Source of the DNA: Styela clava
Lineage: Eukaryota > Chordata > Ascidiacea > Stolidobranchia > Styelidae
NCBI RefSeq assembly: GCF_964204865.1
Contig: NC_135251.1
Span: 15,314,001-15,378,000, forward strand
Length of the DNA stretch: 64,000 nucleotides
Direction of reading: 5' to 3'
This document shows, piece by piece, positions 13,833 to 53,196 of this stretch. The position numbers and the translations under genes are program-made. Numbering within the stretch: the first letter of the stretch is position 1; every line of letters begins with the position of its first letter. A model generated the notes under the pieces. The model made no database searches. It saw nothing but the letters and a program-made list of their open reading frames with translations, and was not told the origin of the DNA.

Positions 13833-16800
13833 TCATAGCAAGTGTTTCAGTTCTAACCAATCTGACGACTTTCCAAGTGAATGTCTTTTGCACCAGTCTG
13901 GATCATGGTCCAATTCTAGAGCTACTTCAGCTAAAAAGTCAATAAACTTGTGCATTTCTTCCTGAGAATCAGAAAATCCTTCGTTCCATGAAATGTGACG
14001 CATTTGCGTTATATTAAACGATGCTACATCAAATGTAACTCCTCTATACGTCACCAAGTACTGATCGCTGATATTTTTGTGTGGTATTTTATGAGTACGA
14101 TTGATCCGTCCTGAAGTTTTATCTTTCAACTCAGGTGCAGAGGATATTAGACTAAAGGAATTTGAATTAATACGCGTATTTGACATTGAGGCATGAGCTG
14201 ACTTCATTTCATGATCCGTATCAGATAAAGTATGATATCCATCGTCCTTCAAGGTGGAATTATCTTCGTTCATCGATCCGACTAGTCTCTGAAATTCTTG
14301 TTCAGACATGGGAATGCCTACAAGACGATTTTTTGGTCTATCCAATATAGGAGAGCGAATCATGCCAAAATTTCCTGGCTTTCTATTCAAATCATAATCC
14401 TTTATAATATTAGATCCCGTTACATGAATGTCTTCGTCACACGATTGCACAGTTTTTCGATTAAAAACGGATCTGCTATTTTTGTCTTTCTTTCCAGTGG
14501 GACGTTTATCATCGGTATATCTGGTTTCATTTATTGTCTGCTCAACTGCGCTCTCTGAACGCCCACGTCTTGCTGAAGTTTCAGATCGGTCAGAATCGAT
14601 GGAAGGACATATTGCGGGAACCGTGCGAGGTTTCAGGTTTTGTTTTAAGGTTCTTTTCACCGGTGTAGATGTCGCAAAATTTTCCACCGGTTTTGTCTTT
14701 TCTTCGGAAATGTCAGTGATGCTACGACTTCCTTTCTTTAACAGACAATTTTTTATTGACGACAATTCCAGTTTTTCCAGAGTACCATCTCTTTTGTCGA
14801 GATTAGTTGTGGCAGATTCTCCTACAATTTTATCACAAGGTACAGTCAATGGTTGACGTTTACAAACCGGATTCTCATTATCAACGGTCTGCCGTGGAGA
14901 CAGTTCTCTATTGGTATCCGAGGCGCCTTGATCTTTTCTTTCAATGGATTTGCGCAACGCTGAATTGTCAGCTTGTAGATGTTGAAAAGTCAATTCTTGT
15001 TGATGATACGCCGATTTCAGACGTTGGAAGTTGGAATACATTCGGTTATATGTATTGTTTTTTCTAACAAACTCTTTCCTGACATTAGTCAAAGATTGCT
15101 TCATATTCTCATTTTCCTTCATCAAATCATGTTTTTGTTTTTTTATTTCATCATATTGCATGATAGGAACGTTACACTCGATTGATTTGTCTTGTTTCTG
15201 AATGTTTCCTGGTTTGAACTCATTTGTCATCTGAATGAGAAGAGATTCAATTCTCTTCATGTCGACCCGCAGATCAGCATTTTCTTTTTCCATTGATTGA
15301 CAGATTTTAGTATTTTTCTCCAATAACACTTTCATTGATGAATGCGATTGAGACAACAAGGTATAGTTTTGTTTGCTAATGCACCCAAGCATTCCTATTT
15401 TATAAGCATCATTCTTAAATATCTCTTCACTTTCATCTTTCTCTCGTCGATGTAAATCTCTTGTCTGTTCTACTGTTTCATGCGCTGCATTCAATTCTTC
15501 TTTCAACTTGTTGTTCTCATATCTTAGTCGGATCATCCTGGCTTCACAAACTTCATCTTTGTTTTTTAAAAGATTTTGCCAGACACATTTCTCACGTTCA
15601 AATGCTTCAGTACGTTCCTTCAGTTGTAGTTCATGAGCAGTAGCGGCAAGTGAAGCTGCAACTTGCACGTGATCGACAAAATTGAGCAGATTTTTAACTT
15701 TGTTCCACATGAACGTTGAGCTTTCATTAATATTTTGTAAAGACAGTTTACATTCGAAAAGTTCACCAAGCTTCTCATATCCACGTTGAAAAAGCTTCAA
15801 ATCAGTCTCTAGATTTTGCAAGAATCTTGCTCTACTCTCTTGGTTTTTTATTCTTCTCAAAACGCCCTCTTTCAGAGAGATTTCCTCTTGCCACTTTTTC
15901 TTGTATTCCTCCACTTTATCTAAAGCTGACGATAAAGCACGTGATGAGATACGAAGATCATCGGTTTGTTCCTTCAAGGTGGATGAACATGAATGCAACC
16001 GATTGCGCATTTTATCTGCATGAGCTCGTGTGATGTTAAGTGCCATCAAAGCATCTTCCAGCTGGCGTCGAGACGTGTTTGTGCTGGAACGATCATTACT
16101 TTCCTGAATATAACAAATATATTTTTATCATTTTGCTCTTAGCAGATTTCTTTTTTTTTGTTCTATATTCGACCTCTCAAACTTACCATTACAGTCTGAT
16201 CCGCAGATTGACCAGTGTTGTTTTTGGTCTCCAGATTAACAAATTTTTGTTGTACTTTCAAACGCTAAAATAAACACAATAAATGTTAATAATTTGATAC
16301 CATTGGGTTACTATTTTCATGCATATTGCAGTCGTAGTGAATTGAAATAAAATAATTACCTTGTCTTCGCAAGCGTTTGACATGAATTTAACTTCGGATT
16401 TTATTTTACATCCAGTACTTGCATCTCCACCATCTCGTTCCACACGAGGTGTATTTTTGACGACCGCTGACAACATACTCTCTTTTTCAATTGGTCGGCT
16501 ATTCCAAGAAAGCTTTCTATCGGTTTCTGAAATGTGCAATTGTGAAGTTATATATTTGGAAATTCTTTGCTCCGTTACAAATGTTTCAAATATGATATTT
16601 TTGAAGAATTGAAAAAATCATACGTCTGAATTGTGCATACAACATTAACAGAATTTGTGAAAAAAATTCATCTTATATTAATAATCTATTCATTGAAAAT
16701 ATATATTATTTTTCAAACAGAATATGAATTATCAACGCAACATTAAACTGATTCTTGGCAAGAAATAAAACTGCAGACCAAGTAGTCAATTTTGTGTCTA

Positions 16801-17018
16801 ACATCTATATTTGGATAAAATAAAAATCAGCACATAGCTTATTTATATAAATACAATGACCCCAAGTCAAGTGTATACATACCATCGTATTTACATGCCG
16901 ATTCATTTGTACTTTTCTGAAGATGTATGCCAACGCGGGGACAGAGTTCATCCTTATTATCAAACTCTTCATCAGTAGCTGACATATTTGAGGATCTTTC
17001 AACAGTTTCCTCATTCAT
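13833..17018 (-). CDS. Coiled-coil protein, tandem paralog A
   Basis: Four coding exons: 17018-16883, 16526-16360, 16264-16187 and 16103-13833, with GT-AG junctions in phases 1, 0 and 0, giving 883 residues. The ATG at 17018 begins MNEETVERSS. Exon 1 is acidic and disordered. From about residue 140 (ALMALNITRAHADKMRNRL) to about residue 480 there is long heptad-rich coiled coil. A Ser/Lys-rich disordered stretch follows, then a short conserved block VGIPMSEQEFQRLVGS near residue 720, then a conserved C-terminal module (about 808-883) with YRGVTFDV, FNITQMRHISW, FIDFLAEVA and SLGKSSDWLELK. No signal peptide or membrane segment. I do not recognise the family; scaffold or adaptor function is only a guess. 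Relative to paralog B, exon 1 lacks six codons (KIPLSI). Confidence 0.88.
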
Positions 17019-18330
17019 ACTTACAGATTTGTCTGCAAGTTTTTCGATTTGTATTCCAACGAGTGAATTTTATTCAAGCAATTGGCGTCTAAAAACAACC
17101 TTGAAACGTGAATGTTCAATTGTATTTAGTACCAAACGGAGATAAAAAAAATACATAATAAAAAACGAAAATGTGCCAATTGTGTCCAAAAGTTATTTTG
17201 GACCTGACACACAGAACTTTTGGCACAAGCATTGCGTTCGCGTTCGATCTTGCGTCAGCAGTTCTATCACAAAAGTTTCCAGAAATGGATGATACTTTTG
17301 TGGGTAGATTTCATGTCTGTTTCTGTTATAATATTTGCGAATATATATTTAATAAAACTTCGTCTTGTATCGAGTTTATCAATGTATATTTCCATATTTC
17401 TGACATGTTTTCAGTGGTTCAACGTTGCAATACGATATACATCGTTACAAAACCACCTCTATGCAAATTGATCTAGGTATTTATATTTTTCATAAGCCTA
17501 ACGTTATATTTAATTAGATTCATTTTACCTGTTGGTGGATATCGGAAGCTGGTTAATCTTTTTAACGATTTCTCACAATTTGAAGTGCAGTTTAGCAAAC
17601 AGCAGAAATCAAATTTATAACGGAAATCTGATCTTCTGTTACCAGGGAAACTCAGAACAATGGAAATATTATTTCGTCCAATCAGAACGTTACATTCGTA
17701 ACTATGCCTGAGAAGTTACCTCCTTATATGTTACCAGATAATTCAACTTGGTTCCAAATGACAAAGGTAAAAAATATTTAAAAAAAGGCTACATTCAAAA
17801 AAAAAAAGCTTACTCCGTGCGTAGAATAAGGATAATCAAAGTTGATGTTTTGAAATATATTAGTAATTTTATTCTTTCAACATAAACTAGTTTTCTTGGT
17901 TTATTCATATTTTTGTTCTGGCATACTACCTATTGGATTCTTTGACAATAGTTACGTTTCTGACGTCACAGTGGCAGTCAGTCAAGTTGATCAGGATGAA
18001 TTTTGAAATCACGTGATAATAGTTTCAGTACTTCTTGAAAACATGAGAAGAATGTCCAAATATATGTACATCAGAGGTCAGCAACATTTTTTCGCATGCG
18101 GGCTAAAATTAAGGGTTTCAAATCTTGGCGGGCCGCACATATTTTTTTAGGAAAGCTAAACAGCGAACGGGTGGCTGACGAATCACATTTTTACCCAGAT
18201 CGGAAGTTGAAATTTTAAATAGCGAGCACCCAGATAGCACAACTACGTCGGAACAACCATGGCCGAACGTTGTTCGAACCACCGGCCCAATAATGGCGAA
18301 CAACCATGTTCCAGCGAAGATTTGGCCGCT

Positions 18331-18545
18331 GGGCCAACGTCGGTCCTTTCGCTGTAATGCAACCGTGGCAAATGGTCGGGCCAACGTGGGCGATACGTTG
18401 TAACACAATCGTGAAATATGGCCGGTCCAACGTTGGCGATACGTTGTAACACAATCGTGACATATGGACGGGCCTACGTAGGTGACACGTTGTAATACAA
18501 TCGTGGCACATGGTCGGGCCAAGTTAGGCGATGTGTTGTACAGAC
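18331..18545. repeat. 46-bp subterminal tandem repeat (about 5 units)
   Basis: Units start at about 18334, 18381, 18427, 18473 and 18519, each with a GGGCCAACGT-like core, a GCGATACGTTGTAA block and a CAATCGTGnnATATGG block. It sits just inside the left inverted repeat of the nested element, where binding-site arrays for transposases are commonly found. Confidence 0.8.
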
Positions 18546-19688
18546 AGGGTATGGATCTATACTACATAGAAATTTCCCACTAATCTAACATTATTTATAT
18601 AATAAAAAACAAAAGATAACAAAATGTCTTTATTTTACAAATATGTATACATGTAATAAAATTAATCGGAGTTCGTTGCCAGATCATCCAGAGCTGAAAA
18701 ATATTAAAATTCTGTGTTAAATTGCAGTATTAGCAAATTACAGCACCAGAGTTCAAAGCCTAGTCTGAATGACTGCATCCCAACAAATTTTCAGAGTAGG
18801 AATCTTAAGCCAAGTTTCTGCAGTCGCAAATGTGTGAGTGAAGCTTACATTGACAAGACAATAATAATTGAGAAATACAGAAATTCTTGATTCCGCAAGG
18901 GGGGCGTAGACAATGTTTTGAGGGGAATATTTGTTGGAGGGAATAATGATGATTTGAGATTTTATCTGACTAAAATGTCTTCAAATATTCCTTGTTGAAA
19001 TTCATCTATATTATTAGAAACATCATGCACCATGATTAGTCTATTTGTTTAATTGATTTAAAATAAATTAATTTGTAACTTCATAATTTGCTGTTGTGCT
19101 AGGGGGGGATGATAATGTAAAAAGTACTGTACGGGAGCGATGATACAAATAAGTTCGAAAACCACTGTTCGCCATTATGCACCAAACTCTGGCAACATTG
19201 GATTGGCAATTTGGCACTTGACTCTAACCATAATCAGCTTGGCGATATCTCCTTAATAAATATTTTTCTATACTGTTCACTTTTGTATACAAAATCTACA
19301 TTCAATTTCTTTACTGTTCACAGTTGTTTACAAAATCATTATTCAATTTGACAATCATAATGATAAAAAATGAATGGTGTGGCAACTGGCAAGTACATTT
19401 TGTTTACTACCAAACTTATCTAAATTTTCTCGCCTGTTTTTATTTTATTATATCTCTGTTGTTGTTGTGTGTGAGTAACTTAATTTAATTCATGAACACG
19501 ATAGGCATCTTTTTGGCAAAACCTTATATTCTTTACGCTTCAATCTTAATTAAGGTTTTGTTTTCACTCCAGATTGTCAGATTCTATTTAATCAATTTTT
19601 GTTCATTTCCCTTATGAATTATCTTAAGCTGATTTGGAGTCAAAATAATCTTATACTTATAAAATAGAAGAGGGTAGAGCAGAGAAAG

Positions 19689-19898
19689 ATGGTGGTACAA
19701 TATGATAAACATATTACATACGTACCTTTAATAGCAGAAACTAAGGGCGTCCCACTCACTCCTTATCCACCGCGTCCTGCACAGTTGAAAGAGCGGGAGA
19801 GTAAATTTGTTATAACTGAGCTCATGATTCTCCAATCCAGTCTTTCTCGGAGCAACCTCCAAGACTTGACAAATATCTTATCTGGAATGAGTAAATAA
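19689..19898 (+). CDS. Short ORF inside the nested element, origin unknown
   Basis: ATG-started 69-residue ORF with a plausible Kozak context (AAAGATGG) and compact protein-like composition (PLTPYPPRPAQLKERESKF, then a helix-like C-terminus). It could be a piece of an element-encoded protein or of a captured host gene. No family is recognised. Confidence 0.25.
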   Translation: MVVQYDKHITYVPLIAETKGVPLTPYPPRPAQLKERESKFVITELMILQSSLSRSNLQDLTNILSGMSK

Positions 19899-20649
19899 GC
19901 ACAATTATAAGAATACATCTAATGAAAAGGTTTTCATCCGTTGCAAAAGCTCTATGTTAAATTATCGCGAGTATCTACTCTAAAATATACACATATGTGT
20001 TTTGTCCACATCCCATTCTTATAAAAGTGAACAATTTTAATATTGCAATCAGATCGTATTTAGACATTTAAATAATCTTCCTTGAACACGAAGCGAAAAT
20101 ATTGGGCATATTGTATTTCATACACAAATTCGAAGCGCTTCATGCAGTCAAAAACAAAACGACAAAAAATAAAAGGCACTCAATAAGATGAGACCCAGCA
20201 AGGGTATTTTCACCTATTTTACTTTCATGTTCTGTTTGGCTTTCCAATTAATTATGGAGTAATCTGCAATATTTTAACATTGTACTAAAACTAAACAAAT
20301 ATTCTGAATCTCAGAGATTTATACATCGTGGTCTTCATACGATGGCATGTGTTACCGGTCAGCGAACTCTTAAATTAATTTTGCTTGCCCGCTGGCCGCT
20401 GGGGTAAAAAGGTTGGGAACCACTGAACTTAAGTACAAGTACAACCACGTTGCACTAATGCCCCGCAAACTTACAGTTGATTTTCATCAGAATGATTGAA
20501 TAGAATAAATTGATTTTTAATGTTTTCTCGTTGTGGGGTCACAAGTATCTGTAGTCTGTGATTTTACAAAAATTGGGGTCGCGGAAAAAAAAGTTTGGGT
20601 ACCACTGCCGTAAAGTGTATGTAATCAGCCTATAAAAGTATTCAACTTA

Positions 20650-20860
20650 CGAGCGATTTTTTCATCCTTGAATGTTTTCTGGATCAAAATGTAATCAGAC
20701 AATGAATTGACAATGAATTTCATCAATTCCTTTATGTCCGAGTCCACACTATAATCAGTGGAAAGTTGCAGATGCCGTAGCTTGTAGCATAAGAGTTTCT
20801 ACCGCCTGTCCCAACAATTTTTCCATGGACTGGATTGGAGCATGGCTTGATCTCTGAAAA
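20650..20860 (-). pseudogene. Degraded exon-like fragment inside the nested element
   Basis: Read on the minus strand, an AG acceptor near 20857 is followed by protein-like sequence (SMEKLLGQAVETLMLQATAS) that breaks at a stop. In another frame it continues as DIKELMKFIVNSLSDYI up to a GTAAGT donor near 20651. A second minus-strand piece near 18672-18700 (acceptor then LDDLATNSD and a stop) may be its terminal exon. One frameshift makes it non-functional as read. Whether it is transposase or captured host sequence is not clear. Confidence 0.4.
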
Positions 20861-20968
20861 TCAAGTTAGTGTTACACAATATATAGTACATGATTGTCTT
20901 TCAGATGATAAACGTGAACGAATGGCCTATACTAATTACCAGAATATAAATTTTTCATTAATATTAGT

Positions 20969-24074: not shown

Positions 24075-24850
24075 AATTACTTATCGATCTTAAGATCGGT
24101 AAGTATGTTGATAGGTATTTGTCTGTTTGTCTGTCTGTCTGTTTGTCTGTTAGATGAACGCGATATCTCACGACGGCGAGCTTGAATCTGCCCCAAATTT
24201 TGCATGTGCATTCATCATATCTCTGACCAAAAGCCTATGGACCTTTCCCTGAACTTTGACCCCGAAAAATTCTTCCTATACTTTACCATTGCAAAATTTT
24301 TGGGGCTATTTTAAGAGTGCTTTGGCAAGTTGGCGCCTGTTAAATGGGGTGTGTGTTTCAAATCATCATTATGATTCGTCGCATACAACAATCTAATTTT
24401 TAAAAGTACCGGTAAAGGATTTTAGCCTAGTCTATCACAGCTATTTCTACACTAATTTTTATTACTGCAATTAAATTAAAACTCCTAGGAAGACAGAGTG
24501 ATCATTGAGTTATCTGATTTAGATTTAAGTTTCCGAAACACAACTGAAAACTAACAAGTAGAGTTCAAAAATGCAAAATCGAGGTAATGTTTACGACCAC
24601 ATTTGAAAATATGTCTGAGTGAGAAAAGTGTCTGAGCGGATGCGAAAAGGGAGCATTGTTACGTCACTTTTTGCATCTTGCTGATTGGCCAATGTTACGA
24701 AGTAAACAAGGAAAGTCGATGCTTGGGGAAAGGTCCATTGGATGAATTATGTCGTATAATTAGCGAGTTATCAATTAATTAGTGATGGAACACGCGGTGT
24801 TGCTAGAGGTTCAGAGAGAATTACAATGCCCTCTCTGCGATGCGATCGAA
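24075..24850. repeat. Dispersed repeat 'TATCGAT/GTCTGTCTG', copy 2, interrupted by a MITE
   Basis: The left part, 24075-24238, has ACTTATCGATCTTAAGATCG, the GTCTGTCTG tract and the TTTTGCATGTGCATTCATC block. The right part, from 24737, resumes with GTCGTATAATTAGCGAGTTA. The 498-bp element at 24239-24736 separates them; comparison with copies at 12640 and 25317 shows that the two parts are contiguous in the repeat. Confidence 0.8.
24239..24736. mobile_element. 498-bp MITE with GGACCTTTCCC termini and AT duplication, copy 1
   Basis: Begins GGACCTTTCCCTGAAC and ends GGGGAAAGGTCC, with AT on each side (24237-24238, 24737-24738). It is the same element, in opposite orientation and of the same 498-bp length, as 41354-41851. 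A 2-bp AT duplication fits the ISL2EU group of transposons as I know it; that assignment is inference. Confidence 0.85.
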
Positions 24851-25689: not shown

Positions 25690-26740
25690 AAAATGGCTAT
25701 GTCCCTGCTAAAATGGTTATGTCCCTACTAAAATGGCTATGACCCTTCTGAAATTGCGATACCGATATTTTCAAACTAAAATGGCTATGTTCCTTTTTAA
25801 AATGCAATCGCAATATTTTCCTACTAAAATGACTATGTGCCTAATAAAATGGCTATCTCCCCGATATTTTTCTACTAACATGGCTATGTCCCTTCTAAAA
25901 TTGCAATCTCGATATTTTTCTACTAAAATGGGTATGTCCCTTCTAAATTGCGATCCCGATATTTTCCTACTAAAATGGCCATGTCGTTACTAAAATGGCT
26001 ATGTCCGCTATGTCTCTACTAAAATGGCTATGTCCCTTTCTAGAATTGCGATCACTATATTTTCCCAGTAAAATGACTATGTCCGCTATGTACCTTCTAA
26101 GTTGCGATCCTGATATTTTACTACTAAAATGGCTATGTCCCTTCTAGAATTGCGATCCCTATATTTTCCTACTAATATGGCTATGTCCGCTATGTACCTT
26201 ATAAATTGCGATCCCGATATTTTCCTACTAAAATGGCTATGTCCTTTTTAAAATGCAATCGCGATATTTTACTACTAAAATGGCTATGTCCCCGATATTT
26301 TTCTACTTACATGACATAGCCATGTTAGTAGGGACATAATTAAATTAGAAGGAAAATATCGATATTTCAATTTTAGAAGGAACATAGGCAGTGGTGGGAT
26401 TCAGTCGGTTCGCGCCGCTCCACGGAATTTTATGAGATCAGCGAACCTGTTAGCTTTACTGGTTACTATCGATGTTCTGTTTGTAACAGAACCGGTTGAA
26501 AAATATGACGTTTGTGATGTAACCGGCTGACAAAAAATTTGAATCCCACCACTGGACGTAGGTCCTAGGTATTTTAGTAGGGACATAGAAGACATAGCCA
26601 TTTTAGTAGGGACATAGCGAACATACCGTAGCCATTTAAGTAGGAAAATATCGGGATCGCAATTTAGAAGGGTCATAGTCCAGTAGTCATTTTAGTAGGG
26701 ACGTAGCGGACATATGGAACATAGCCATTTCATAACTACC
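25690..26740. repeat. Inverted minisatellite array, ~48-bp unit
   Basis: Degenerate units built from CTACTAAAATGGCTATGTCC, CTTCTAAAATTGCGATC and CGATATTTTC run forward from 25690 to about 26308. They then run in reverse complement (GGGACATAGCCATTTTAGTA) to about 26740, so the array has a palindromic centre near 26308. The reverse arm is interrupted by a MITE at 26389-26554. Unit length 48 is a multiple of three, which produces repetitive spurious ORFs. Confidence 0.9.
26389..26554. mobile_element. hAT MITE with CAGTGGTGGGATTC ends, copy 1
   Basis: Begins CAGTGGTGGGATTCAG and ends GAATCCCACCACTG. Flanking octamers AACATAGG and GACGTAGG agree at 6 of 8. The interior carries AACCGGTT-type motifs and matches the copy at 42880-43038 in inverse orientation. 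Confidence 0.88.
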
Positions 26741-34000: not shown

Positions 34001-35531
34001 AGATTGCAATCTCTGCTAAACGTGAAATAACCCTCGCACAAAATGTTAGAAAATGGTTGTTTTTACATTCACAGAAAACAAAATTGAAGATGGAACCTCT
34101 ACAATCATCTATAATACAAATAAGTGCCTGGGAAAAAGAGTTTATGCGGGAAAAATAGTAAGGCAAGTGGTCGTACAGGATAAATTAGCTGTCAAACTTC
34201 GAACTATTGATAGAAGCTTGTCACAAGAAGATATTGATAAACAGTATTTGGATGAAATAAAAATTGCAATTAAGTTGCTTGCACATGACAATGTGGCCAG
34301 ATATGTAAAACATCTCACATGCTACCTTTCCAACGAACTTACTGTTGTTATTGTCACAGAGCTATGCAACCACGAGAAATTAGAAAGCCATTTGCCTGGA
34401 TTCTCAATAGAAGAAAAAAAAATATTGCTTGTACAACTTTGTCATGGTCTAAAACATATCCATGCAAAGCAGATTACCCACAGAGATCTCAAACCAAGCA
34501 ATGTGCTGCTTTCAATAGATGGAAAACATATCAAAATTATTGATTTTGGAATCAGCAAGGAGTTTGCATTAGATGAAAATAAAACAATTACCAGATCATC
34601 CGGGTTTAGTGGAACCCTTGGTTGGGTTGCATCAGAAATGTGTCCAGACGACCGATCCAAAGAATTTGAAGCTTGGGTCAAGGCTGATTTATATTCATTA
34701 GGTCTTGTTATTTATTTTATTTTCACTGATGGAGAACACCCTTATCAAGGAGATCGTTTTGATAAGCATCAAAGTATAAAGATGAAGAAAAAACCAAATT
34801 TTTCTGTCATTGAAGATGCCAAACAATTCCATGAAAGGTATTTACTTATTGATCTCCTGAAGATCATGCTCAGTCATGAACCAGACGCTCGTCCTGGAAT
34901 TGAAAAAATACTTCAGCATTGCTTTACATGGAAGGAAGAAAAGAAAATGAACTTCATTCATGTTTGCCATCGATATTTTGAACAACCATGTGATGAAGAC
35001 AAGGAAATGCCAAAGAGAAAAGCAAAAAGAAAATTAGAGAGCAATGGATCTGTGGAACAGAGAATGGCATACGTTGTCAAAGAAAGCATTGATACTTATA
35101 GCAGTGATGACAGTCAAGATTCAGTCCAGTTTGACCCTCCAAATGAAGAGGTACCACAGGACAATAACGAACTTGTGCGGACCGAAAAAGAAGATGAAGC
35201 GTTGAAAAGAATTTATGAAATTGTTAGCGAGAACTGGGTTGAATTGATATTGAAAAAACTGGAAGATCCCAACGATGGAAATTGCAACCCATATAAGAAC
35301 AGCTTTACTGATCTAGTTCGTTGTATTCGAAACACTCATGAATATTATGATAAGAAATCAAAAATAGTGAAATCCAAACTTGGTTCAAAAGATAGAGGCA
35401 TGTGGAACTTTTTCGCTTTAAACTTTCCAGAGCTCTTCATATACCTATTCCATCTCATGAAAAATGGATTAGAAGGAGATGACAAGAAAAACTACTTGCA
35501 AAAAGAGGCAAAGAATTGTGCATTGCCGTAA
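31063..35531 (+). CDS. IRE1/RNase L-like protein kinase with C-terminal KEN domain
   Basis: Four coding exons, 31063-31114, 31221-31301, 32205-32333 and 34075-35531, with all junctions in phase 1, give 572 residues. Residues 1-90 are polar and disordered; no signal peptide, membrane segment or ankyrin repeats are present, unlike IRE1 or RNase L. The kinase domain (about 100-380) keeps the ATP-binding Lys of LAVKL (about 128), HRDLKPSNVLL (Asp about 225), IDFGISK (Asp about 244) and the GTLGWVASEM activation segment typical of IRE1. The C-terminal KEN nuclease fold (about 380-560) shows NPYKNSFTDLVRCIRN and FALNFPELFIYLFHLMKNG. A roughly 65-residue acidic insertion with a basic PKRKAKRK patch splits its N-terminal part. 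KEN Tyr, Arg and Asn are retained (494, 506, 507), but the catalytic His position is Tyr 511. Kinase activity is plausible; RNase activity is doubtful. Introns 2 and 3 hold a SINE-like repeat and a hAT. Confidence 0.92.
31340..31835 (+). mobile_element. Probable tRNA-derived SINE in intron 2 of the kinase-KEN gene
   Basis: The head contains an RNA polymerase III B-box-like GGGTTCGAATCCC (about 31399-31411) and an A-box-like GCTAGCGTTAAC about 40 bp upstream, as in tRNA-derived SINEs. The 3' end is a short AAATAAAATTGTATTGTATTGG tail of LINE-like TTGTA repeats. No clear target duplication was found, and only one copy is in the window. Confidence 0.5.
32695..33962. mobile_element. hAT-like element in intron 3 of the kinase-KEN gene
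   Basis: Begins CAGGGCTTCCCAAACTATGG and ends GGAAGCCCTG. Flanking octamers CTCTAGAC and CTCTGATC agree at 6 of 8. The right half (about 33470-33720) is related, in inverse orientation, to sequence at 47270-47540. Another MITE is nested at 32857-33225. No transposase frame. Confidence 0.75.
32857..33225. mobile_element. MITE with GTGTTTCCCCGGAAATAAGA ends, nested
   Basis: Left end CGTGTTTCCCCGGAAATAAG, right end CCTATTTTCTGGGAAGCAC (its approximate inverse), with AGGGCTTATnTTnA motifs inside both ends. These termini are typical of a widespread animal MITE type. Confidence 0.65.
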
Positions 35532-37046: not shown

Positions 37047-40000
37047 TCAAAATAAGTCTTTCAGTTCTAACCAATCTGATGACTTTCCAAGTGAATGTCT
37101 TTCGCACCAGTCTGGATCACGATTCAACTCTTGAGCTACTCCAGACAAAAAGTCAATAAACTTATGCATTTCTTCCTGAGATTCGGAAAACCCTCCGTTC
37201 CATGAAATGTGACGCATTTGCGTTATGTTAAACGATGCTACATCAAATGTAACTCCTCTGTACGTCACCAAGTACTGATCGCTGATATTTTTGTGTGGCA
37301 TTTTTGGATTACGATTGATTCGTCGTGAAGTTTTATCTTTCAACTCAGACGTAGAGGATATTAGACTAGAAGAATTTGAAGTGTTACGCATATTCAATAT
37401 TGAGGCATAAGCCGACTTCATTTCATGATCCGAATCAGATAAAGTATGATACCCATCGTCATTCGAGGTGGAAATAATATCTTCGTTCATCGATCCGACT
37501 AGTCTCTGAAATTCTTGTTCAGACATGGGAATGCCTACAAGACGGTTTTTTGGTCTATCCAATATAGGAGAGCGAATCATGCCAAAATTTCCCGGCTTTC
37601 TATTCAAATCGTAATCCTTTATAATATCAGATCCCGTTACATGAATGTCTCCGTCACACGATTGCACAGTTTTTCGATTAAAAACGAATCTGCTATTTTT
37701 GATTTTCTTTTCAGTGAGACGTTTATCATCGGTATATCTGGTTTCATTCACTGTCTGCTCAACTGCGCTCTCTGAACGCCTACGTCTTGATGAAGTTTCA
37801 GATCGGTCAGAGTCGATGGAAGGACATATTACGGGAACCGTACGAGGTTTCAGGTTTTGTTTTAAGGTTCTTTTCACCGGTGTAGATGTCGCAAAATTTT
37901 CCACCGGTTTTGTCTTCTCTTCGGAAATGTCAGTAATGCTACGACTTCCTTGCTCTAACAGACGATTTTTTACCGACGACAATTCCAGTTTTTCCAGAGT
38001 ACCATCTCTGTTGTTGAGATTAGTTGTGGCAGATTCTCCTACAATTTCATCACAAGGTACAGTCAATGGTTGACGTTTACAAATCGGATTCTCATTATCA
38101 ACGTTCTGCCGTTGAGACAGTTTTCTGTTGGTATCCGAGGCGCCTTGATCTTCTTTTTCAATGGATTTGCGCAACGCGGAATTGTCGGATTGTAGATGTT
38201 GAAGAGTCAATTCTTGTTGATGATAAGCCGATTTCAGACGTTGGAAGTTGGAATACATTCGGTTATATGTATTGTTTTTTCTAACAATCTCTTTTCTAAC
38301 ATTAGTCAGAGATTGCTTCATGTTCTCATTTTCCTTCATCAAATCATGTTTTTGTTGTTTTATTTCATCAAATTGCAATATAGGAACGTTACATTCAACT
38401 GATTTGTCTTGTTTCTGAGTATTTCCTAGTTTGAACTCATTTTTCATCTTAATGAGAAGAGATTCAATACTCTTCACGTCGACCCTCAAATCAGCGTGTT
38501 CTTTCTCCATTGATTGACAGATTTTAGTATTTTGCTCCAATGACACTTTCATTGATAAATGCGATTGAGACAACAAGTTATAGTTTTGTTTGCCATTGCA
38601 TTCAATCATTCTCATTTTATCAGTATTATTCTTAAACATCTCTTCAATTTCATCTTTCTCTCGTCGATGTGAATCTCTTGTCTGTTTTACTGCTTCGTGC
38701 GCTGCACTTAAATCTTCTTTCAACTTGTTGTTCTCGTAAATTAGTCGGATCATCCTGGCTTCACAAACTTCATCTTTGTTTTTTAGAAGATTTTCCCAGA
38801 CACATTTCTCACGTTCAAATGCTTCGGTACGTTCCCTCAGTTGTAGTTCGTGAGCAGTAGCGGCAAGTGAAGCTTCAACTTGCACACGATTGACAAAATT
38901 GAGCAAATTTTTAACTTTGTTCCACATGAAAGTTGAGCTTTCCGAAATATTTTGTAAAGGAAGTTTACATTCGAAAAGCTCACCAAGATTCTCATATCCA
39001 CGTTGAAAAAGCCTCAAATCAGTCTCTAGATTTTGCAAGGTCCTTACTCTACTCTCTTGGTCTTCCATTCTTCTCAAAACGCCCTCTTTCAGAGAGATCT
39101 CCTCTTGCCACTTTTTCTTGTATTCATCCACTTTATCTAAAGCTGACGATAAAGCACGTGATGAGATACGAAGATCTTCGGTTTGTTGCCTCAAGGTGGA
39201 TGAACATGAATGCAACCGATTGCGCATTTTATCTGCATGCGCTCGTGTGACGTTAAGCGCCATCAAAGCATCTTCCATCTGGCTTCGACACAAGTTTGAG
39301 TTGGAACGATCATTATATTCCTAAATATAACAAATATATTTTTATCATTCTGCCCTCAGCAGATTTCTCTATACATATATTATATATTCTCCTCCTCAAA
39401 CTTACCATTACAGTCTTAGCCGGATATTCACCAGTGTTGTTTTTGGTCTCCAGAGTATCAAATTTTTGCCGGACTTTCAGTCGCTAAAATAAACACAATG
39501 AATGTTAATAATTTGATACCATTGGGCTACTATTTTCATACATATCGCAGTCGTAGTGAATCAATATAAAATATTTACCTTGTCTTCGCAAGCGTCTGAC
39601 ATGAATTCGATTTCGGATTTTATTTCACATCCAGTACTTGCATCTCCACCATCTTGTTCCACATGACTATTTAGTGTATTGTTGACGGCCGGTGGAAACG
39701 AATTCTCTTTTTCAATTGGTCGGCTATTCCAGGTTATCTTTCTATAGGCGTCTGAAATGTGCAATTGTGAAGTTATTTGGAAATGCTTTGCTCTGTTACA
39801 AAGGTTCCAAGTATATTATTTTGAAAAAACTGGCAAAATTTTATGTCAGGATGTTGCATACGAGTCCGACATTATCAATAACAAAATTCGGGAAAGGAAT
39901 TTACCAAATACATCTAATAGTATTCACTCCTCTCATTGAAAGTATATACTATGATCAATTTTGTTTCTCCAATCCCCTATTTTTGTCAATATTTGTAAAA

Positions 40001-40367
40001 ACACAACTGAAGATTTTTCAAAGAGTCCAAAATTAGGTATGAACAGAATGTTAATTATCAACGCAACATCAAACTACTGTAATTGTTTAACAAAAATTAA
40101 AACTGCAGACCAAGTCATCAATTTTGTGTCTAACATGTATTGCTATATTTGGATGAAAAACCGCACATTAGCGCATAGGATATTTATATAAATATGAACT
40201 AGTGTGTACATACCATCGCATTTACATGCCGATTCATTTGTACTTTCCCGGAGATGCATGACCACGCGAGGACTGAGTTCATCCTTATCATTAATAGATA
40301 AAGGAATTTTAAACTCCTCATCAGTATCTGACATATTTGAGAACCTTTCAACAGTTTCCTCATTCAT
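37047..40367 (-). CDS. Coiled-coil protein, tandem paralog B
   Basis: Four coding exons, 40367-40214, 39751-39579, 39483-39406 and 39320-37047, GT-AG with phases 1, 0 and 0, give 892 residues. It is the close duplicate of the gene at 13833-17018: most of the large exon aligns without gaps and differs by scattered substitutions. It keeps the long coiled coil, the VGIPMSEQEFQRLVGS block and the C-terminal module (about 817-892: YRGVTFDV, FNITQMRHISWN, SLGKSSDWLELK). Exon 1 retains EEFKIPLSIND, which is partly deleted in A and aligns with DWFEIPLSSDDED in the third paralog. The intact frame after duplication suggests it is functional. Family unknown; probably an intracellular scaffold. Confidence 0.88.
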
Positions 40368-41353
40368 ATTTACAGATTTGTCTGCAAGTTTTTCGACGTG
40401 TAATCCAACGGGTAGGTTTTATTCAAACAATTGAAGCTTAAAATGAACCCTGAAACGTGAATGTTCGATTTTAATTAATACCAAACGCAGATGAAAATAC
40501 ATAAAAAAAACAAGATGTGCCAATTGTGTCCAAAAGTTATTTTGGACCTAATACATAAAACTATTGGTACAAGCATTGCGTTCAATCTTACTGCAGCAGT
40601 CCTATTACAAAATATCAGATTTTTTCATTTCCAGACATAGATTAAATTTTTGTGGATGGATTTTATGTATGTTTCCATTATAATTTGCGATTATATATTT
40701 AATAATCTCTCGTCTTCGATCGAGTTCATCAATGTATATTTTCATATTTCTGAATTGTTGTCAGTGGTTCAATGTTGCGGTACAAAACCACCTCTATATG
40801 CCAATTAATCGAGTTATTTATATTTTACATGAGCTTAACGTCATATATATGTAATTACATTCACTTTACCTGTTGGTGGATATTGGAAGTAAGTTACTCT
40901 TTTTAACGATTTCTCACAATTTGAAGTGCAGTTTAGCGAACAGCGAAAGTCAAATTTATAACTGAGATCTGATCATCTGTTACCAGGGAAACTCTTAACA
41001 ATGGAAATATTATTTAGTCCAATCAGAACGTTACATTCGTAACTATGCCGAGAAGTTGCTTTATTACATGTTGCCAGATAATTCAATTTGGTTCTTAATA
41101 ACAGAGGAAGAAATATAAAAAAAGCTACATTCAAAAGAAAAAAGCTTGTTCAGTGCTTAGAGTAAGAATAATCAGAGTTAATGTTTTCGCACGGTTGACT
41201 AATTTTATTTCATTAACATAACTAGTCTTCTTAGTTTATTCATATTATATGCTTTGGTCTGGCATACTCTTATCGAATTTTTTAGCCATAGTTACGTTTC
41301 TGACGTCACAGTGGCACTGTTTCTTGGGTTGAATTTTAAAATCAAATGATAAT

Positions 41354-41851
41354 GGACCTTTCCCCGAGCATCGACTTCCTTGTTTACTTCGTGACAATGG
41401 CCAATCAGTAGGGTGCAAAAAGTGACGTAACCTTGCCCCCTTTTCGCATCCGCTCAGACACTTTTCTCACTCAGACAGATTTCAAAGCGTGGTTGTAAAC
41501 ATTACCTCGTTTTCGCGTTTTTGAACTTTATTCGTTAGTTTTCAGTTGTGTTTCGGAAACTTGAATAAAATTCAGATATTTCAATGATCACTCTGTCTTC
41601 CTAGGAGTTTTGATCTAATTGCAGTAATATAAATTACTGTAGAAATATCTGTGATAGACTAGCCTGAAATTCTTTACCGGTACTTTCAAAAAACAGATTG
41701 TTGTATGCGATGAATCATAATGATGGTTTGAAACACATAACCCATTTTACAGGCGCCAACTCGCAAAAGCATTCTTAAAATAGCCCCGAAAATTTTGCAA
41801 TGGTAAAGTATAGAAAGAATTTTCCGCAGGTCAAAGGTCGGGGAATGGTCC
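41354..41851. mobile_element. 498-bp MITE with GGACCTTTCCC termini and AT duplication, copy 2
   Basis: Begins GGACCTTTCCCCGAGC and ends GGGGAATGGTCC, flanked by AT at 41352-41353 and 41852-41853. The paralogous site at 18019-18020 reads GATAATAGTTTC without the element, so the target AT was duplicated on insertion. Reverse-oriented relative to the copy at 24239-24736. Confidence 0.93.
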
Positions 41852-42060
41852 ATAGTTTCAGCACTTCTTAAAATAAGAGAAGAATGTCCATGATATGTAC
41901 GTGAAGGTCGCGTGTGGGTACATGTACAAGTGTGCTGAAGGCTAACTGAGTATCGAGTTTGCAGAAAAGATGGACGAACAAGCGCGACGCTATTAAGTGT
42001 TCCCGTGAAAAAACTTCAGTAAAATATGGGGTCTTACAAGAATCAGAGTGAATTAATAAC

Positions 42061-43038: not shown

Positions 43039-43467
43039 TTTTAGGTTAATATGGAAGCAAAACGTTCAGTATAAGCTAAGAAATACTTCTATTTCATTAT
43101 AGCAGTCGTGATGTTCGTTCTCGTCTTCAAAGATTACGTCAACTTGTTGAAGGTTTTCAATCTTTTTTTCAAAAATGTATAGCAGAACAGTTGCTTTTCT
43201 CAAGTAGAGTCATTGCGTTTGCTTCGATCAATGAATTTCTTATGTTTAATATATCTTCAGCGCTCATTATTGGTTTAGTAGTAAAAATTGAGTTGGTGAC
43301 TTTACCTAGAAAATAACATTGCGACGTTGTAGCTTAATAATCATCGGTTTTTAGTTGGAACTATTATCAATTCATTATTCATGTATGGTGAAACGCAATA
43401 TAAATCGAAAATTTAAGAATAAAAATATGGAAATAGATTGCACAAATAGGTAAAAACCGTGTATTTT

Positions 43468-45528: not shown

Positions 45529-45600
45529 CTGAAGCAAGTTAATAAAGCAGCAACGAAAACCTTAGCCAGAAAAATGATTTGCGTATACAAGTTTGAAATA

Positions 45601-46980
45601 GCACTGTTTATTAGCTAAACAAAAAGGCACACTTAAAAAAATTTCACACGAAGAAAACTATTCTGCTGCTGTTTCGTTTCCAATATAGGATTGCAAACGA
45701 GGCCTCAAAGAAGTTTCTGCAACACGTGGCTCTGCAGCAGCGTGTAGCAGATTTCGCTTTAATTAAAGCTAGTGATGAGCATGTTTTTTTGCATAAAACT
45801 GGTTGAAAATACGGACAACAGTTTAACTGCTCGATTACTTAGCGATGGGCATTCGTTAAAAAGAGATATCCAAAATTGTGACAGTGATTGGTTTTGAAAT
45901 CTGGACTGTAAAGTAGAATCACAATTTTAATCAAGCTTTTTTATTTTCATCGGGTTTATCATATTAATCCCTCTGCAGTTGATCGACGCCTCAAACGAAA
46001 TACATTACAATGACAAATTCGTCCGTCGGTAACTTGGCACCAGGCTCAAAATCCTACTGCCCCTACTCAAAATACTGGGAAAGAGCTCTGCGGCCCATGC
46101 TTTTTTGCGCGTCTCGTGACCACCTGCAAGTTCATATCTTACTGGAATATTATACTTTTCTTGACTGTTTTCTGGTTTAAACGAAGAAAAATGCATAACG
46201 TTTTATATGAATAGTCATATTAATCAGGAAAAGCACGCAGACTAAAAAAAGCACGCGTGCCGATTTTTAGGTTTCTGAATCTTGCGAGATTTGTTGAAGC
46301 GCATTCTCGATGAATCGGAGTTCGAAAAGTGTGATTACTCGGCGCCAAGATGTCGCGATAGACGTCGCCAAGATGTCACGATCACGAAAGACGTAGCAAT
46401 ATGACGTCGGAAGAGAAAGTGCGTAATAAACCAACGCAACCTCGTCTTCGGTAAAGCGATTGAGACGGCATAAAAACAACAAAATAACGAAATTTACTCG
46501 CGGACGGGCGGTTGGGAACCACTGACTTAGACTGAGTTAACGGAGCGACGTGTGTCTCCAGTTTTTCAGCTTGGTATGAAGCCGGACGAAATTATACTCA
46601 GATGATCGATTATTTTTCATCTTTATAAACACGATTGATTTTACCTTGATGTGGGCGTTTAATTTAAATATAAAGCATGCAATGCAAAAACGATCTATTG
46701 ATTTAATGTTTACATGATGCACACTTTATACTAGTGTAGAAAATAAATTGAGAATAAATTACATCAGGTGGCATTCGAAAAACAGTCACGCTCTTATTAT
46801 TGATTGCAACAACAACAACCGAGTGAGAGTAGACTGGTTTGCCATTTTGGCAATATCAGTATTTAGTTGAAAATTTAGAAAGCATATATTAACGTGGCCA
46901 GAATGAAAAATGTTTTACGCAACCAATTTTAGAATTTCCTATTCAAATGAACTAGAAGTTTGATAAATGTCGTTATCAAT
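45601..46980. other. Region upstream of the lipocalin exons; transposon remnants
   Basis: No convincing first exon of the lipocalin was found. A hAT-like right terminus GCGGTTGGGAACCACTG ends at about 46524 without an identified left end. The rest shows only unsupported ORFs. Confidence 0.4.
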
Positions 46981-46990
46981 ATAGGTTACG

Positions 46991-47540
46991 CCAGCGGTTC
47001 CCAAACTTTTTCTTCGTGCGGCGCCGAATTATCGGTACTCCCGTAGTATGTATATCAGGTGAGGGTTGAGCCATAATTTTATTTCGAATTTTTTTTAATT
47101 CAGTTCTATTGCGAGTTCGGGGACTGTCTGTGTAGGCCAGGCGAATATACCCCCTGTCCACAGGCTTCAGTTCTTTAACACAACTTGATCTAGGATAGTC
47201 GAACAAAATTAGTTACCTCCATATTGGCATACATACTTCTGGAGCGCCAAATTATCAGGGAGAAAACTCACGGCGCATTTACACGAAAAAAAATTTGCTG
47301 CCTTTAAATAAAACTTCATTTTGTGATCATTGTGAACATGTATGCCTAAGGAATATTGACAAAAGTTCAACTCTTCTTTCTCATCTATGTCTGAATTTCC
47401 TCTGAAATACTAAAAAAATCACTCATATTCTCTACGCTCGGTTCAGAAGATAAATAAACTGCAGCTTACGAAATTGCAGCAAGTTGCGTCTGGATCTATT
47501 TTTTATTGTTAAGTAATAATAGAGGCAAACCTACGTAACA
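46991..47540. mobile_element. hAT-like remnant containing a nested foldback element
   Basis: Starts with a hAT-like end CAGCGGTTCCCAAACTTTTT at about 46991 and includes sequence (about 47270-47540) related in inverse orientation to the right half of the element in the kinase-KEN intron. The right boundary is uncertain. It is split by the foldback element at 47034-47248. Confidence 0.55.
47034..47248. mobile_element. Short foldback element, copy 3 (8-bp TSD)
   Basis: Left end GGTACTCCCGTAGTATGTAT, right end CATACTTCTGGAGCGCC (inverse GGCGCTCCAGAAGTATG). Flanking octamers GAATTATC (47026-47033) and AAATTATC (47249-47256) agree at 7 of 8. Interior GGTGAGGGTTGAGCCATAAT matches the other copies. 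Confidence 0.82.
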
Positions 47541-47672
47541 GAAAGTAAACGACATGGAAAGGGAAAATAAATTTATTGATTCATATACATAGCACCTAAA
47601 AAAGGATCAAACAAACTATCAAACAAAATACCTTTTCATAGGTCTACTCTAAATTTCCTTCAATTGAGTAAA

Positions 47673-47888
47673 TTAGTGACAAGTCTTTCTAAAGCCAGCC
47701 GAATTGAAACTCCCGTATATCGTTATTGGCAGTTCTATTACTGAAATAGACTCGTACGCGACTGTTAGTTTCCACTCTTCCATCAGCGATCTGTCTGTTC
47801 TCAAGATAGGACCTTTCACATGTACTGTAAATTTTTCGTAATTGAATTGATAATTGAAATTATTGCTTGTCAACGTCCAAGCTACCGT
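47673..47888 (-). CDS. Possible orphan terminal exon
   Basis: After an AAG acceptor-like site at 47889 the minus strand encodes about 70 residues of protein-like sequence (WTLTSNNFNYQ, then EEWKLTVAYESISVIELP) ending in TAA at 47673. It lies just downstream of paralog C, in the same strand. No partner exon was found; it could be a fragment of a secreted protein gene or chance. Confidence 0.25.
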   Translation of the reverse strand, partial: TVAWTLTSNNFNYQFNYEKFTVHVKGPILRTDRSLMEEWKLTVAYESISVIELPITIYGSFNSAGFRKTCH

Positions 47889-48184
47889 CTTGTATATTTC
47901 TTGTGAATATAAAAGATATTCATGTAATAAATAATACTGTAAATAGGTAAGTGCAAGTTGGCTTTCGTACATCTATTAATTGCTCGCTGCGGCAAAACAC
48001 ATCAAGATGATGAATGGTTACGAATAAAAAAATCAATGAAAATTGGTACGCTATGTTTTGATGTACCGGTACGTTGTACGCATAATACATAACTCGGAAA
48101 TATAGATAAACTGAAGCATTGCAATTGATCAAGAAACACGCGCTCCGATCAGGCGAAGTAATCACATGGTGAAGTGGAACGTTA

Positions 48185-51100
48185 TCATTGGAAAAGTCCT
48201 TTGAGTTGCAACCAATCTGACGATCTCCCCAGTGAGTGTTTACCAGTCCATTTAGGATTATCATCTAAATCTTGGGCTACTTTTGCTAAAAAGTCAATAA
48301 ATTTGATCATTTCAGCTTGTGAATCGGAGAATCCGACGTCCCAGGCAATTTGACGCATTTTCGTAATATCAAATGAAGATACATCGAATGTCACTCCTTT
48401 GTACTTAACTAAATATTGACTTCTCGAATTTTCGTTCAAACTGGATATAGATGCACGTCTGTTATCCTGCGAAAGTGTATCATCAGAGCAATCGTCAGCT
48501 ACACTATTGTACGGGAACAATAAATTTGCGTGTAGCTGGTCCGACGCTGTCGCGATACTGTCATTGTATGTCGATCGGTCATTCTGTATTTCACTCAATT
48601 GTCTTCGACAATTTAAGTCCTCTGACGATGAAGAGTAACCGTCGTCCATCCAGCTTGATTCTCGTAAGTTTCTGTGACTCACATTATTGAGTTCAGATGA
48701 CGTGACTGGTTTCTGGTCTATGTTCAATGATCCAACTAGTTTTTGAAATTCTTCCTCAGACATTGGAATTCCCACAAGCCGCTTCGGTTGCTTATCTATC
48801 TGAAGAGAAGTGAGGGTAGAATTTTTTGATTTTCGTGAACAGGTTGATGAGGTATGACTATTTAACTTCGAAGAAGACGAATCACGACACATTCCAAACA
48901 CTTCTTCAACCTCACTTCCACTATTAGTTGCCAATTGTGAAATACCATTTCTAGTTGTCCCACATGAATATTTATTCTCTGGATTTTCTTGTCTCCATAT
49001 GGGCAGCTTGTAACCGTTCTTTGTGCGTTTATACTTCGGTGGTCGCCTGAGATTTGTTTGACTATCTGAACAGGAAGAAGAACTGCTGCTTGGAATGTGA
49101 TCACGAGCAGGACGTGACAAGGAAGTTCTCTTCCGCACTGGTGTAGAGGTTTTGAATTTATTTGCTGTATTATCTTCAGGTTCAGAATTGGTTTTATTAA
49201 AATTTAGTGGGTTCGTTCGAGTAAATTCTGATTCAAGGTTTCCCATGAGGTTACTAGGTTGAGCTACGCTATGTTGCAAGTGCTCGCCATTAGCTTCCTC
49301 GTTATCAGAAAAATTTTCATCTGCGCTTTCAGGTATGGTTTGAAGTTTGATTCTGTCGGTGTCCGACTCACTGTCAGGTTTTTCGAAAGACCAGAATAAT
49401 CCGCCTTTCTGCCGCAATCGTGGCGAGTCATTGTTACCTGTAAGAGATTTTTCATCTGAACTAGATGTACTATGCCCACTTCTTTGACAATCATCGTTAT
49501 TTTGTAACATTGTAACGGAGTGATTTAAAGAAGCATTATCGGCACGAAGATGTTGAACATTAATTTCCTGTTGATGAAAAAGCCATTTCAAATGTCGGAA
49601 ATCAGAATAGATTCTGGCATATTCGTCGTCTTTTAAAAGTAATTCCCTTTTTCGAAAGTCGATGATTTCTCTCATTTCAATAATTTGCTCTCGTAATTGA
49701 GAATTTTGATTTTGCAAATCTTGAAATCTTTCAGCGTCAGTATTCACTGATGATCGAAGAGAAGAACTATCAACACAGTCGGCAAATTGATGAATTTGTG
49801 CGTCATTATAGGTAAAATTACACTCAACCGATTTGTCTTCTTTTTGTTCGACTTTCACTTGAAATTTCTGTATGGCAAGAATGTTTTGAATATTTGTGTT
49901 CTCCTCGTAAAGTTGATTCTTTTCATTTTCCAGCGTTTGACAAAAATTTTCTTTTTCTTTCAACGATAATTCCATGTCTGAAATAGATTTTAAAAATTCT
50001 TCTTGATTCTGCGAAATAATGCATTCCAGTTCTTTTATTCGAATTTCGTATTTCTGCAATTTTGACTCTTTATTATCACCCTCATCATTCGTCTTGCGCA
50101 ATAAAGATCGCATCTCATTGAATTCATTTTTAATCGATGTGATTTCAGATCTCAGTTTACCGTTTTCAAATTGAAGTTTGTTGATTTTGGATTCAAAATT
50201 TTCAGTTTTGTTTTTATGAAAGGTATTCCAAGTGTGTTTCTCTGCCTCATGCGCCCCAAGACGTTCATTCATTTCGACTTCATGAACTTTCTTGGCGACA
50301 GCAGACTCCACTTGCAATCGCTCAACTAAATCAAGTAAATATCGTACTTTGTCTGATACCAGAGTAAGTTGTTGAAACGCGGTCTGTGACTGGTCATCGC
50401 ACTGCAAAAGTCCGCTCAGCCTATCATAACCTTGACGGAATAGTTTTAGCTTTGCTTCTTCAGCTTTCAACTCCTCTATTTTGGATGCTTGTTCTTCAGA
50501 TATTCGTATCATGTCTTCTTTCAACATTTTTTCTTCTCTCCATTTAGCTTTGTATTCTGATACTTTATCTAACGTTGACGACAATGCTCGAGACGACGAA
50601 CGCAAATCTTCTGCTTGTTGCTTCATGCTAGATGTGTAAGTTCGCATACGATCACGCATGTTGTCGGCATTGCTTCTCGTTATTTCAAGCGCCTTCAAAG
50701 CATCTGCCAGTTGACGCTGTAGAGCTGATTTTGTATCGGAGAAGTCATCTTTGACCTGTAAGATTCAGTGAAGTTATTTATTTTCCATATATATTCAGTT
50801 ACAATGATGTGTTTTTCAATCCACAAAACTTACCGCATCAGTTTGAACACCCGCATGCGTATTTTGTACAGGTATCTGAGCCATCTTGACTTCGTCAACG
50901 TCACGAGTTACTTTTTCTATATTCTAAAGTGTAAATTGAATAAATTCGATTTAAGATTGACATTTGACAGCTTGTAATAATGATTCGCAAAATCTAGAAT
51001 ACTGGATCAATAAATCATGCACACAATCACTTTTTTTTAAATTCGATCATTACCTTTTATTAAATTTTCTTAAGAAACATTATGGTAACATATCAAGAGG

Positions 51101-53196
51101 GAAATGAACAGCAACATAATGGCAAAATAGAACGACTGAATACGGGTAGCATTGAAGATGTTTTTTTACATATGGGCATTTCGACTTCAATTAATGTATT
51201 CATATAAATTTTCAAACAAATTTCCGTTTTTATGGCAATTAAAAGTTTACATGCCTTCTGTACAAAGTCTTCATCTGACAAATTCGTTTCAACTAACTTT
51301 ATCTCCCGATTTTCCTCAGGCGATTCATTTTTCGTTTTTTCAATATCCTGCATAAATGTAAAGAACACCGATTCTTTCGATTTTTACTGTCATTTGAATT
51401 TCATCTAGTTGAACATTCAAGTTCTACAATCCATGAATAATAGTTAATATAAGATCATACCACATAAAAGCTAAGAACAAAAATTAAAAATACAATTTAG
51501 AATACCTATAATTATTGTAATCATAATCCCGATTCCCGATCATCATTATTCCAAATTTTCTGAAGTAATTTTTGGTATATAAAACTCTTGCTGAAAATTT
51601 TAGTAAGTTTACTGCACTACATCTACCTTCACATGTAAATCGAGCAGTCCAAGATACTAATGCATTACAGTAATAAAGTTCAGTTACTTGTTCATGACTG
51701 ACCCAACGTATCTTTCCGAACGTTGGCTACTCTCATTCGTAACTGATGTGAAAATTTCCCGATTTTCGGAACCAATTCTTATTGAAAATATAAATCCAAC
51801 GCAATCCAAAACTTGGGTCGTGCTACATAGCACATTCCCATATAACCAAGTATATATTACATGAAGTGATCGGCGACGTTGCCGATAAGCCAAAATTTAC
51901 AAACGCTGTCTAATAATACCAACTATTGTGTATTTAGTGGGTGGGAGATACATTCATAATATTTTTTCCTGATAGTTTATGCGCATACGCGGAATGCCAA
52001 CTATTGTCAGATAATATTATAGTCAAACAATCTTTGCAATTGTAAATATGATGTCTCAGGTAGAAAAATATTCACTTTGTTGACTATTACTATTGACTGA
52101 CTATTTTTGTCTTTGTTTTTGTCCATTTTTAATTTGCTCATTTTAAAATTGGAACTAAATGACGAAGATGTAAAAACTGCGCTACCATCGATGTTATGTT
52201 TACATAATCTTATATATGTAGCCTATATATATACCTGATATTCACCCTCTGGTGTTAGGAAATATTTCTCTGCGTTCCCACACGATGTTAAATTTTCCTT
52301 TATTGTTGCAATATCATTTCTATGAAAAGCATTCTCTGTGACGATCGACGGTAGTTCAGGGACGCTGGTGGGTATTGAGTCGAAGATTGGGCCTGTTTCG
52401 TGATATAAAAATTTATGGAGTACATGTTTATTCTGTTGACTAATCCCGAGTATTTCATCACATTCACAATCATCTGAAAAAAAGAAACTGGTAAATTATT
52501 TCGTTCTGGTAAATATCTGCAAAAGTCGAAGAAATTATATATTCGCGTCTGCCCGGTTTAAATTGGAACCTTGACATAAACCAATGACACGTTAAAAACT
52601 ACATATACACTGGTAAAGTAGATTTGCTGAAATCTCTGGGAAGGAGCAATGGCGTAAAATTCAGACGGTCATATCCGTTTACACGCAAATAACCATGAAA
52701 ATTATAATGAAAAATAAACTAACCGCGTGGTGTTAAAGAAGATTCGCATTCGCTAATTCTTTGAAACTCCAAAACTCCACGCGGACTGAATCTATCTTCG
52801 TCGTCTGAAGATAGAGGGATCTCAAACCAATCTCCAGGCTGCTTTATGCTCGGAGAGATCTCAGAGATAAAATCTGATGGCTTTGAAGATCGATCAGGTA
52901 GATCATTACAATCCTCACTACTTGTTGTTGTAACGTTGTTTTCTGAAAACACAGCAACAGGAACCCAATTCCAACCTGAAAGCAAAATGTAGAGCTGGTG
53001 TGGAAGAGTAGGCTACCGACTAAGGAAATGTCACACTTATAATCGAATGCTTTAAACTAGAATGGTACAGTTTCAGTTTGGAACGACAAGGAAATGACTT
53101 GGTCGTGTTTCATTAATTATATACTTATAACGTACCTGATGAATATTGAAATAACACATTTGGTGACTCACTTGCTTTCTGAAATGCAGCAAACAT
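48185..53196 (-). CDS. Coiled-coil protein, paralog C (longer founder-like copy)
   Basis: Six coding exons, 53196-53136, 52975-52724, 52473-52235, 51347-51255, 50923-50834 and 50755-48185, chain in phase to 1101 residues. The intron after 51255 has a GC donor (AAG|GCATGT); all others are GT-AG. The start ATG at 53196 begins MFAAFQKASES. Residues about 65-70 contain GDWFEIPLSSDDED, an aromatic-x-x-Ile next to acid residues, resembling an LC3-interacting motif (inference only). A long coiled coil spans about 245-620. VGIPMSEEEFQKLVGS lies near 902, and the C-terminal module (1025-1101) has YKGVTFDVSSFDITKMRQIAW and SLGRSSDWLQLKGLF. Exon 2 aligns with exon 1 of paralogs A and B, so those two have lost the N-terminal part. 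Family and function unknown. Confidence 0.88.

Follow-up and report, generated by a model that had tools for sequence, protein, structure and literature searches.

Three Styela clava genes encoding putative scaffold proteins with a conserved C-terminal module unclassified in the libraries searched

As a kind, the coiled-coil scaffold proteins of centrosome, cytoskeleton and Golgi combine a helix-rich middle with poorly conserved, Ser/Thr-rich linkers, a short conserved motif and a C-terminal module. A second point of reference are the CCT/PF2-like domains (Pfam OSR1_C PF12202 and CCTL2_WNK PF24889) of OSR1, SPAK, WNK1-3 (CCTL1 and CCTL2) and NRBP1, which bind RPhi motifs; in SPAK and OSR1 the domain is C-terminal. 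The acid pair with which NRBP1 binds Arg has equivalents in OSR1. In NRBP1 it consists of Glu484 and Glu492, which bind the Arg of the RPhi motif (PMC12266122). Here, a window of 64,000 nucleotides from the ascidian Styela clava (assembly GCF_964204865.1, contig NC_135251.1, positions 15,314,001 to 15,378,000 of the forward strand) was analyzed for three related genes, termed A, B and C; all coordinates are window positions. With a probability of roughly 0.55, A, B and C code for members of a single family of long scaffold or adaptor proteins with a dimerising middle, flexible linkers and a partner-binding C-terminal module. The likeness to the generic scaffolds is one of architecture only, and no named family matched significantly.

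The coding sequences (CDSs) were assembled directly from the raw window sequence. All three were found open and in frame on the minus strand, which bears out the original prediction of three related genes with these ends. Gene A (13833..17018; exons 17018-16883, 16526-16360, 16264-16187, 16103-13833) encodes 883 amino acids, gene B (37047..40367; exons 40367-40214, 39751-39579, 39483-39406, 39320-37047) 892 and gene C (48185..53196; exons 53196-53136, 52975-52724, 52473-52235, 51347-51255, 50923-50834, 50755-48185) 1101. GT-AG borders were observed for 10 of the 11 introns, while intron 4 of C is GC-AG. The exon phases had been described as shared. This holds for A and B (1,0,0 in both), but C shows 1,1,0,0,0 and two extra introns, though two of its introns nearly coincide with those of A and B. 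All introns are confined to the N-terminal third, which aligns poorly. Introns 1 and 2 of A/B lie 6-8 alignment columns from introns 2 and 3 of C, and the last intron of each gene lies upstream of the helical region. Because of this proximity of C introns 2 and 3 to A/B introns 1 and 2, the intron pattern is likely inherited from a common ancestor, although column-by-column proof is lacking. The tandem arrangement stood with respect to the common strand, but the copies are distributed across 39 kb, and between A and B lies at least one kinase frame. A tblastn search with the three proteins (E<=1e-3) found no fourth family copy in the window.

At the protein level A and B were found 83% identical, while A/C and B/C reached 36% each. 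The DNA of A and B is 90% identical over 2.9 kb (last three exons, their introns and 3' flank) and 80% identical over another 1.3 kb (first exon plus about 1 kb upstream). Substitution rates at nonsynonymous (Ka) and synonymous (Ks) sites were derived from Nei-Gojobori counts. For the whole CDS they gave Ka 0.079 and Ks 0.145 for A/B and a Ks of 2.9 for A/C; Ks was not computable for B/C. Judged from these values, A and B are a recent local duplication which included about 1 kb of upstream DNA, and C is an old paralogue separated long before. Two 142-codon open frames on the plus strand, at 14428-14856 and 37645-38073, are antisense to the linker regions of these two genes, at the equal relative place; most likely the duplication of coding sequence produced them incidentally. 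Upstream of B an insertion of about 500 bp was observed at about 41353-41853, which A lacks at the corresponding upstream site (near 18020). Its termini are inverted, ATGGACC(T/A)TTCCCCGA, and 2 bp (AT/TA) of target sequence are apparently duplicated; an inverted copy (89%) is located at 24235-24739. The insertion looks like a miniature inverted-repeat transposable element inserted later than the A/B duplication.

Evidence for a functional unit came from the pattern of substitutions. For the whole CDS of A/B, 72.2 synonymous changes in 546 sites were counted versus 156.8 nonsynonymous changes in 2103 sites (Fisher p 5e-5). For the C-terminal module, located at 13836..14063 in A (aa 808-883), 37050..37277 in B (aa 817-892) and 48188..48418 in C (aa 1025-1101), all on the minus strand, the counts were 11.0 in 45 versus 10.0 in 183 sites (p 0.0004). 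The synonymous skew persisted with the module excluded (p 0.002). By region, Ka/Ks for A/B was 0.97 in the N-terminus, 0.42 in the helical region, 0.75 in the first and 0.61 in the second linker and 0.19 in the module; the module ratio for A/C was 0.10, a rough value, as Ks is near saturation. These data support the view that purifying selection on the module is strong and that it behaves like a domain, as had been proposed from its conservation. The A/B pattern, with a most constrained module and drifting N-termini, would be expected if partner binding is shared while other inputs diverge. The same numbers bear on whether A and/or B are decaying duplicates, either pseudogenes or untranslated copies. 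The high Ka/Ks outside the module (0.42-0.97 in the four computable regions) and the element of about 500 bp located about 1 kb upstream of B would fit decay. However, the frames are open over 883 (A) and 892 (B) codons with intact splice sites, and the A/B substitutions are skewed to synonymous ones, most of all in the module, so that we regard decay as very improbable.

The module was found 87% identical between A and B and 67-68% identical between either of them and C; BLASTP of module A versus module C yielded an E-value of 1e-40. Among windows of 76 columns in the A/C alignment it scored highest (0.68, median 0.34). Upstream of it, the top score of 0.59 was reached where the helical region begins (A 140-215 versus C 259-334). 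Linker identity of A/C and B/C falls to 24-30%. The claim that the module is more conserved than the rest thus stood for windows of its own size, but a 21-residue RLVGIPMS block scored higher, with 81% identity between A/B and C and no nucleotide difference between A and B. That such a block is common to the three genes was thereby confirmed. It comprises 22 residues, of which the first 21 were scored, and reads RLVGIPMSEQEFQRLVGSMNED in A (14262..14327) and B (37479..37544) and RLVGIPMSEEEFQKLVGSLNID in C (48716..48781), each on the minus strand. This block and the beginning of the helical middle are two further conserved islands beside the module; conserved islands and diverged linkers are the pattern expected of domains and motifs connected by flexible linkers.

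The middle region covers aa 139-514 of A (14943..16070), 147-522 of B (38160..39287) and 258-659 of C (49514..50719), all on the minus strand; in all three proteins helix formers are frequent in it and Pro and Gly scarce. Heptad periodicity was tested against shuffles in 42-residue windows (p<=0.05); 5 of 41 windows of A, 7 of 41 of B and 8 of 51 of C were periodic. All periodic windows of A (5/5) and B (7/7) and six of the eight of C lie within or overlap the middle region. The long coiled coil that had been claimed is thus retained as regards helix content, but only in part as regards periodicity, and the middle region is partly supported as a coiled coil. A KS[VI]ECN island inside it is common to A, B and C. 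The linkers are rich in Ser, Thr and charged residues and diverge fast. An LC8-type VQT motif was found at aa 241 of C only, and was rejected as a family feature because it is confined to this copy.

The fold of the module was predicted with AlphaFold2 in two jobs of three sequences each, model 1 for the module alone and model 2 from the RLVGIP block through the C-terminal end. Model 1 yielded strands at residues 6-9 and 12-15 and helices at 21-30, 37-56, 60-63 and 71-79, with a mean predicted local distance difference test (pLDDT) score of 62. In model 2, the module showed strands at 125-128 and 131-134 and helices at 140-149, 156-175 and 188-198; over residues 121-199 the ten-residue block means of pLDDT were 64-86, their mean about 76. 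The RLVGIP block (residues 1-20) reached 53-64 with a predicted helix at 10-18, as noted for the block of C, and the linker between block and module 22-40. The strand-strand-helix-helix order was common to both jobs, so that a hairpin followed by helices is predicted for the module, that of C included. Of the motifs originally named for it, FDITKMRQIAW is correct for C, but A and B read FNITQMRHISW.

A predicted hairpin leading to two helices and a comparable size (58-60 aligned residues) are features that the module would have in common with the CCT/PF2-like domains, as is the C-terminal position seen in SPAK and OSR1. We considered whether it represents a divergent version of this domain type within a coiled-coil protein that is not a kinase, nearest to WNK1 CCTL2 in that both are without a full Arg-binding acid pair, and binding a non-RPhi ligand. 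VIA-align with model 1 placed a weak CCT/PF2-like resemblance (WNK/SPAK kinases) in its top rows, upon which this reading was at first preferred. With model 2 this was not seen again in VIA-align or in Foldseek against PDB. Comparison of the module with known CCT sequences by hhalign gave a probability of 0.55%, with 20 of 300 shuffles scoring at least as high, at low power, since NRBP1 itself, run against five of these sequences, reached no more than 8%. This reading was demoted after the hhalign result and the lack of recurrence with model 2, and we consider it improbable. Neither the sequence search nor the profile comparison lent it support. In a hand-placed ungapped alignment all three proteins have Phe and Ile at the acid-pair positions, so that the pair is not evident, provided that the alignment is right. 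Unlike the CCT kinases, A, B and C showed no kinase domain in their last-exon frames by Pfam. The three proteins contain no site for the WNK-type RPhi ligand R[FW]x[VIC].

None of the libraries searched named the module with significance, in agreement with the original statement that it could not be placed in a family. Pfam returned no family at E<=10 for modules A and C, while the identical search recovered OSR1_C from OSR1 and WNK1 fragments. NCBIfam returned one family for the three modules (E 0.066, regarded as chance). Foldseek against PDB, suggested along with the original prediction together with an AlphaFold model, gave no significant match (37 matches for model 1, best E 1.6; 11 for model 2, best E 5.4), and BFVD with model 2 yielded 47 matches (best E 1.1). 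In PDB, phmmer found no match for the last-exon frame or the module of C; one profile search gave three matches (best E 0.27) and another 34 (best E 0.074), all regarded as chance. With the last-exon frames, the N-termini of C and B and the first part of the helical region as queries, all Pfam matches remained below the curated cut-offs and were of the coil or chance type; the lowest E-value was 0.0086 for DUF4763 (15.8 bits, cut-off 30.1). As controls, in collections of phage, prokaryote and viral sequence without animal genomes, the last-exon frame of C found no relative among phage records by tblastn, and pattern scans across contigs of prokaryotes and viruses matched 97 and 155 stretches, none confirmed. 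Six exact conserved-motif strings did not occur in the literature texts searched, and nothing on the A/B/C family appeared among the papers listed for tunicate or lineage-specific coiled-coil domains. The module is unclassified within the libraries searched.

These searches also have to be weighed against the view that A, B and C are fast-evolving members of a coiled-coil family already known in animals, such as the scaffolds of centrosome, cilium, kinetochore or Golgi, with vertebrate members and a C-terminal domain without a Pfam model. The architecture is generic for such scaffolds, animal proteins are only partly covered by Pfam and PDB, and the libraries searched contain no animal proteomes. 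Against this view, no Pfam family reached its curated cut-off, including the two N-termini and the helical start, and neither DUF4763 nor the best PDB match offers a significant candidate. We give it a little less than even odds; it overlaps with the scaffold family proposed here and bears on novelty, not on mechanism. Homologues in vertebrates or other invertebrates are possible, so novelty of the module is not established.

The scaffold or adaptor reading rests on genes that are intact and under constraint and whose products are built in four layers: an N-terminus of low conservation, a helix-rich, partly heptad-periodic middle conserved at its start, a rapidly diverging Ser/Thr/charged linker, and, late in the protein, the conserved RLVGIPMSEEEF block and module. 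From this anatomy, the middle would dimerise the protein, the linkers would be flexible, phosphorylatable and regulated, and the module, a hairpin followed by two or three helices, would recruit a partner. The RLVGIP block may dock on the module of its own or the sister chain, or may be a second partner-binding motif. The higher module pLDDT with the block present is compatible with docking. Several points weigh against this reading. The whole-CDS Ka/Ks of 0.54 for A/B indicates only moderate constraint outside the module, the heptad signal is patchy, and neither AlphaFold2 job contained a residue with pLDDT >=90. The pLDDT rise between the jobs may be run-to-run variation, and no library match points to a cellular process, organelle or pathway. 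A more specific proposal appears unlikely to us: the module would be an undescribed small interaction domain of hairpin and helices, possibly a CCT/PF2-like offshoot outside kinases, and the RLVGIPMSEEEF block its built-in ligand, which would let the protein alternate between a closed form docked on itself and an open form with a bound partner.

Other features were observed in the window. Between A and B, at 34050-35531 on the plus strand, an uninterrupted 493-codon frame contains a protein kinase domain (Pfam Pkinase E 7e-38; VKL, HRD and DFG motifs recognisable) followed by an IRE1/RNase L-type KEN nuclease domain (Ribonuc_2-5A E 2e-12); no sensor domain was matched in this frame. Nuclease activity appears doubtful because the spacing from the RN motif to the next His in KEN looks unlike that of IRE1/RNase L. 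A minus-strand frame at 10486-10917 gave a Pfam match to Sec1/Munc18 proteins (Sec1, E 3e-12), and the neighbouring minus-strand frame 11517-11882 (span 10486-11882) resembles VPS33B. The plus-strand frame 60755-61450 corresponds to the beginning of organic anion transporters (OATP family, E 1e-25) and is presumably a single exon from a longer gene. A tandem array at 25724-26292 has a unit of about 48 bp in 11.5 copies (73% matches; period 104 also scored) and inverted matches at about 26571-26699. Short direct repeats at 2596-4423 of 71 bp (92%), 43 bp (93%), 59 bp (85%) and about 180 bp (74%), spaced by about 750-1250 bp, are possibly duplicated exons or repeats.

If A, B and C are overlooked homologues of a vertebrate scaffold, the finding would amount to an ordinary gap in annotation. 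If the module is CCT-like, the RPhi-binding fold, known from the osmotic pathway of WNK, would extend to non-kinase scaffolds. If it is lineage-restricted, it would be an animal domain with a clear conserved core, suited to structure determination and a search for its partners.
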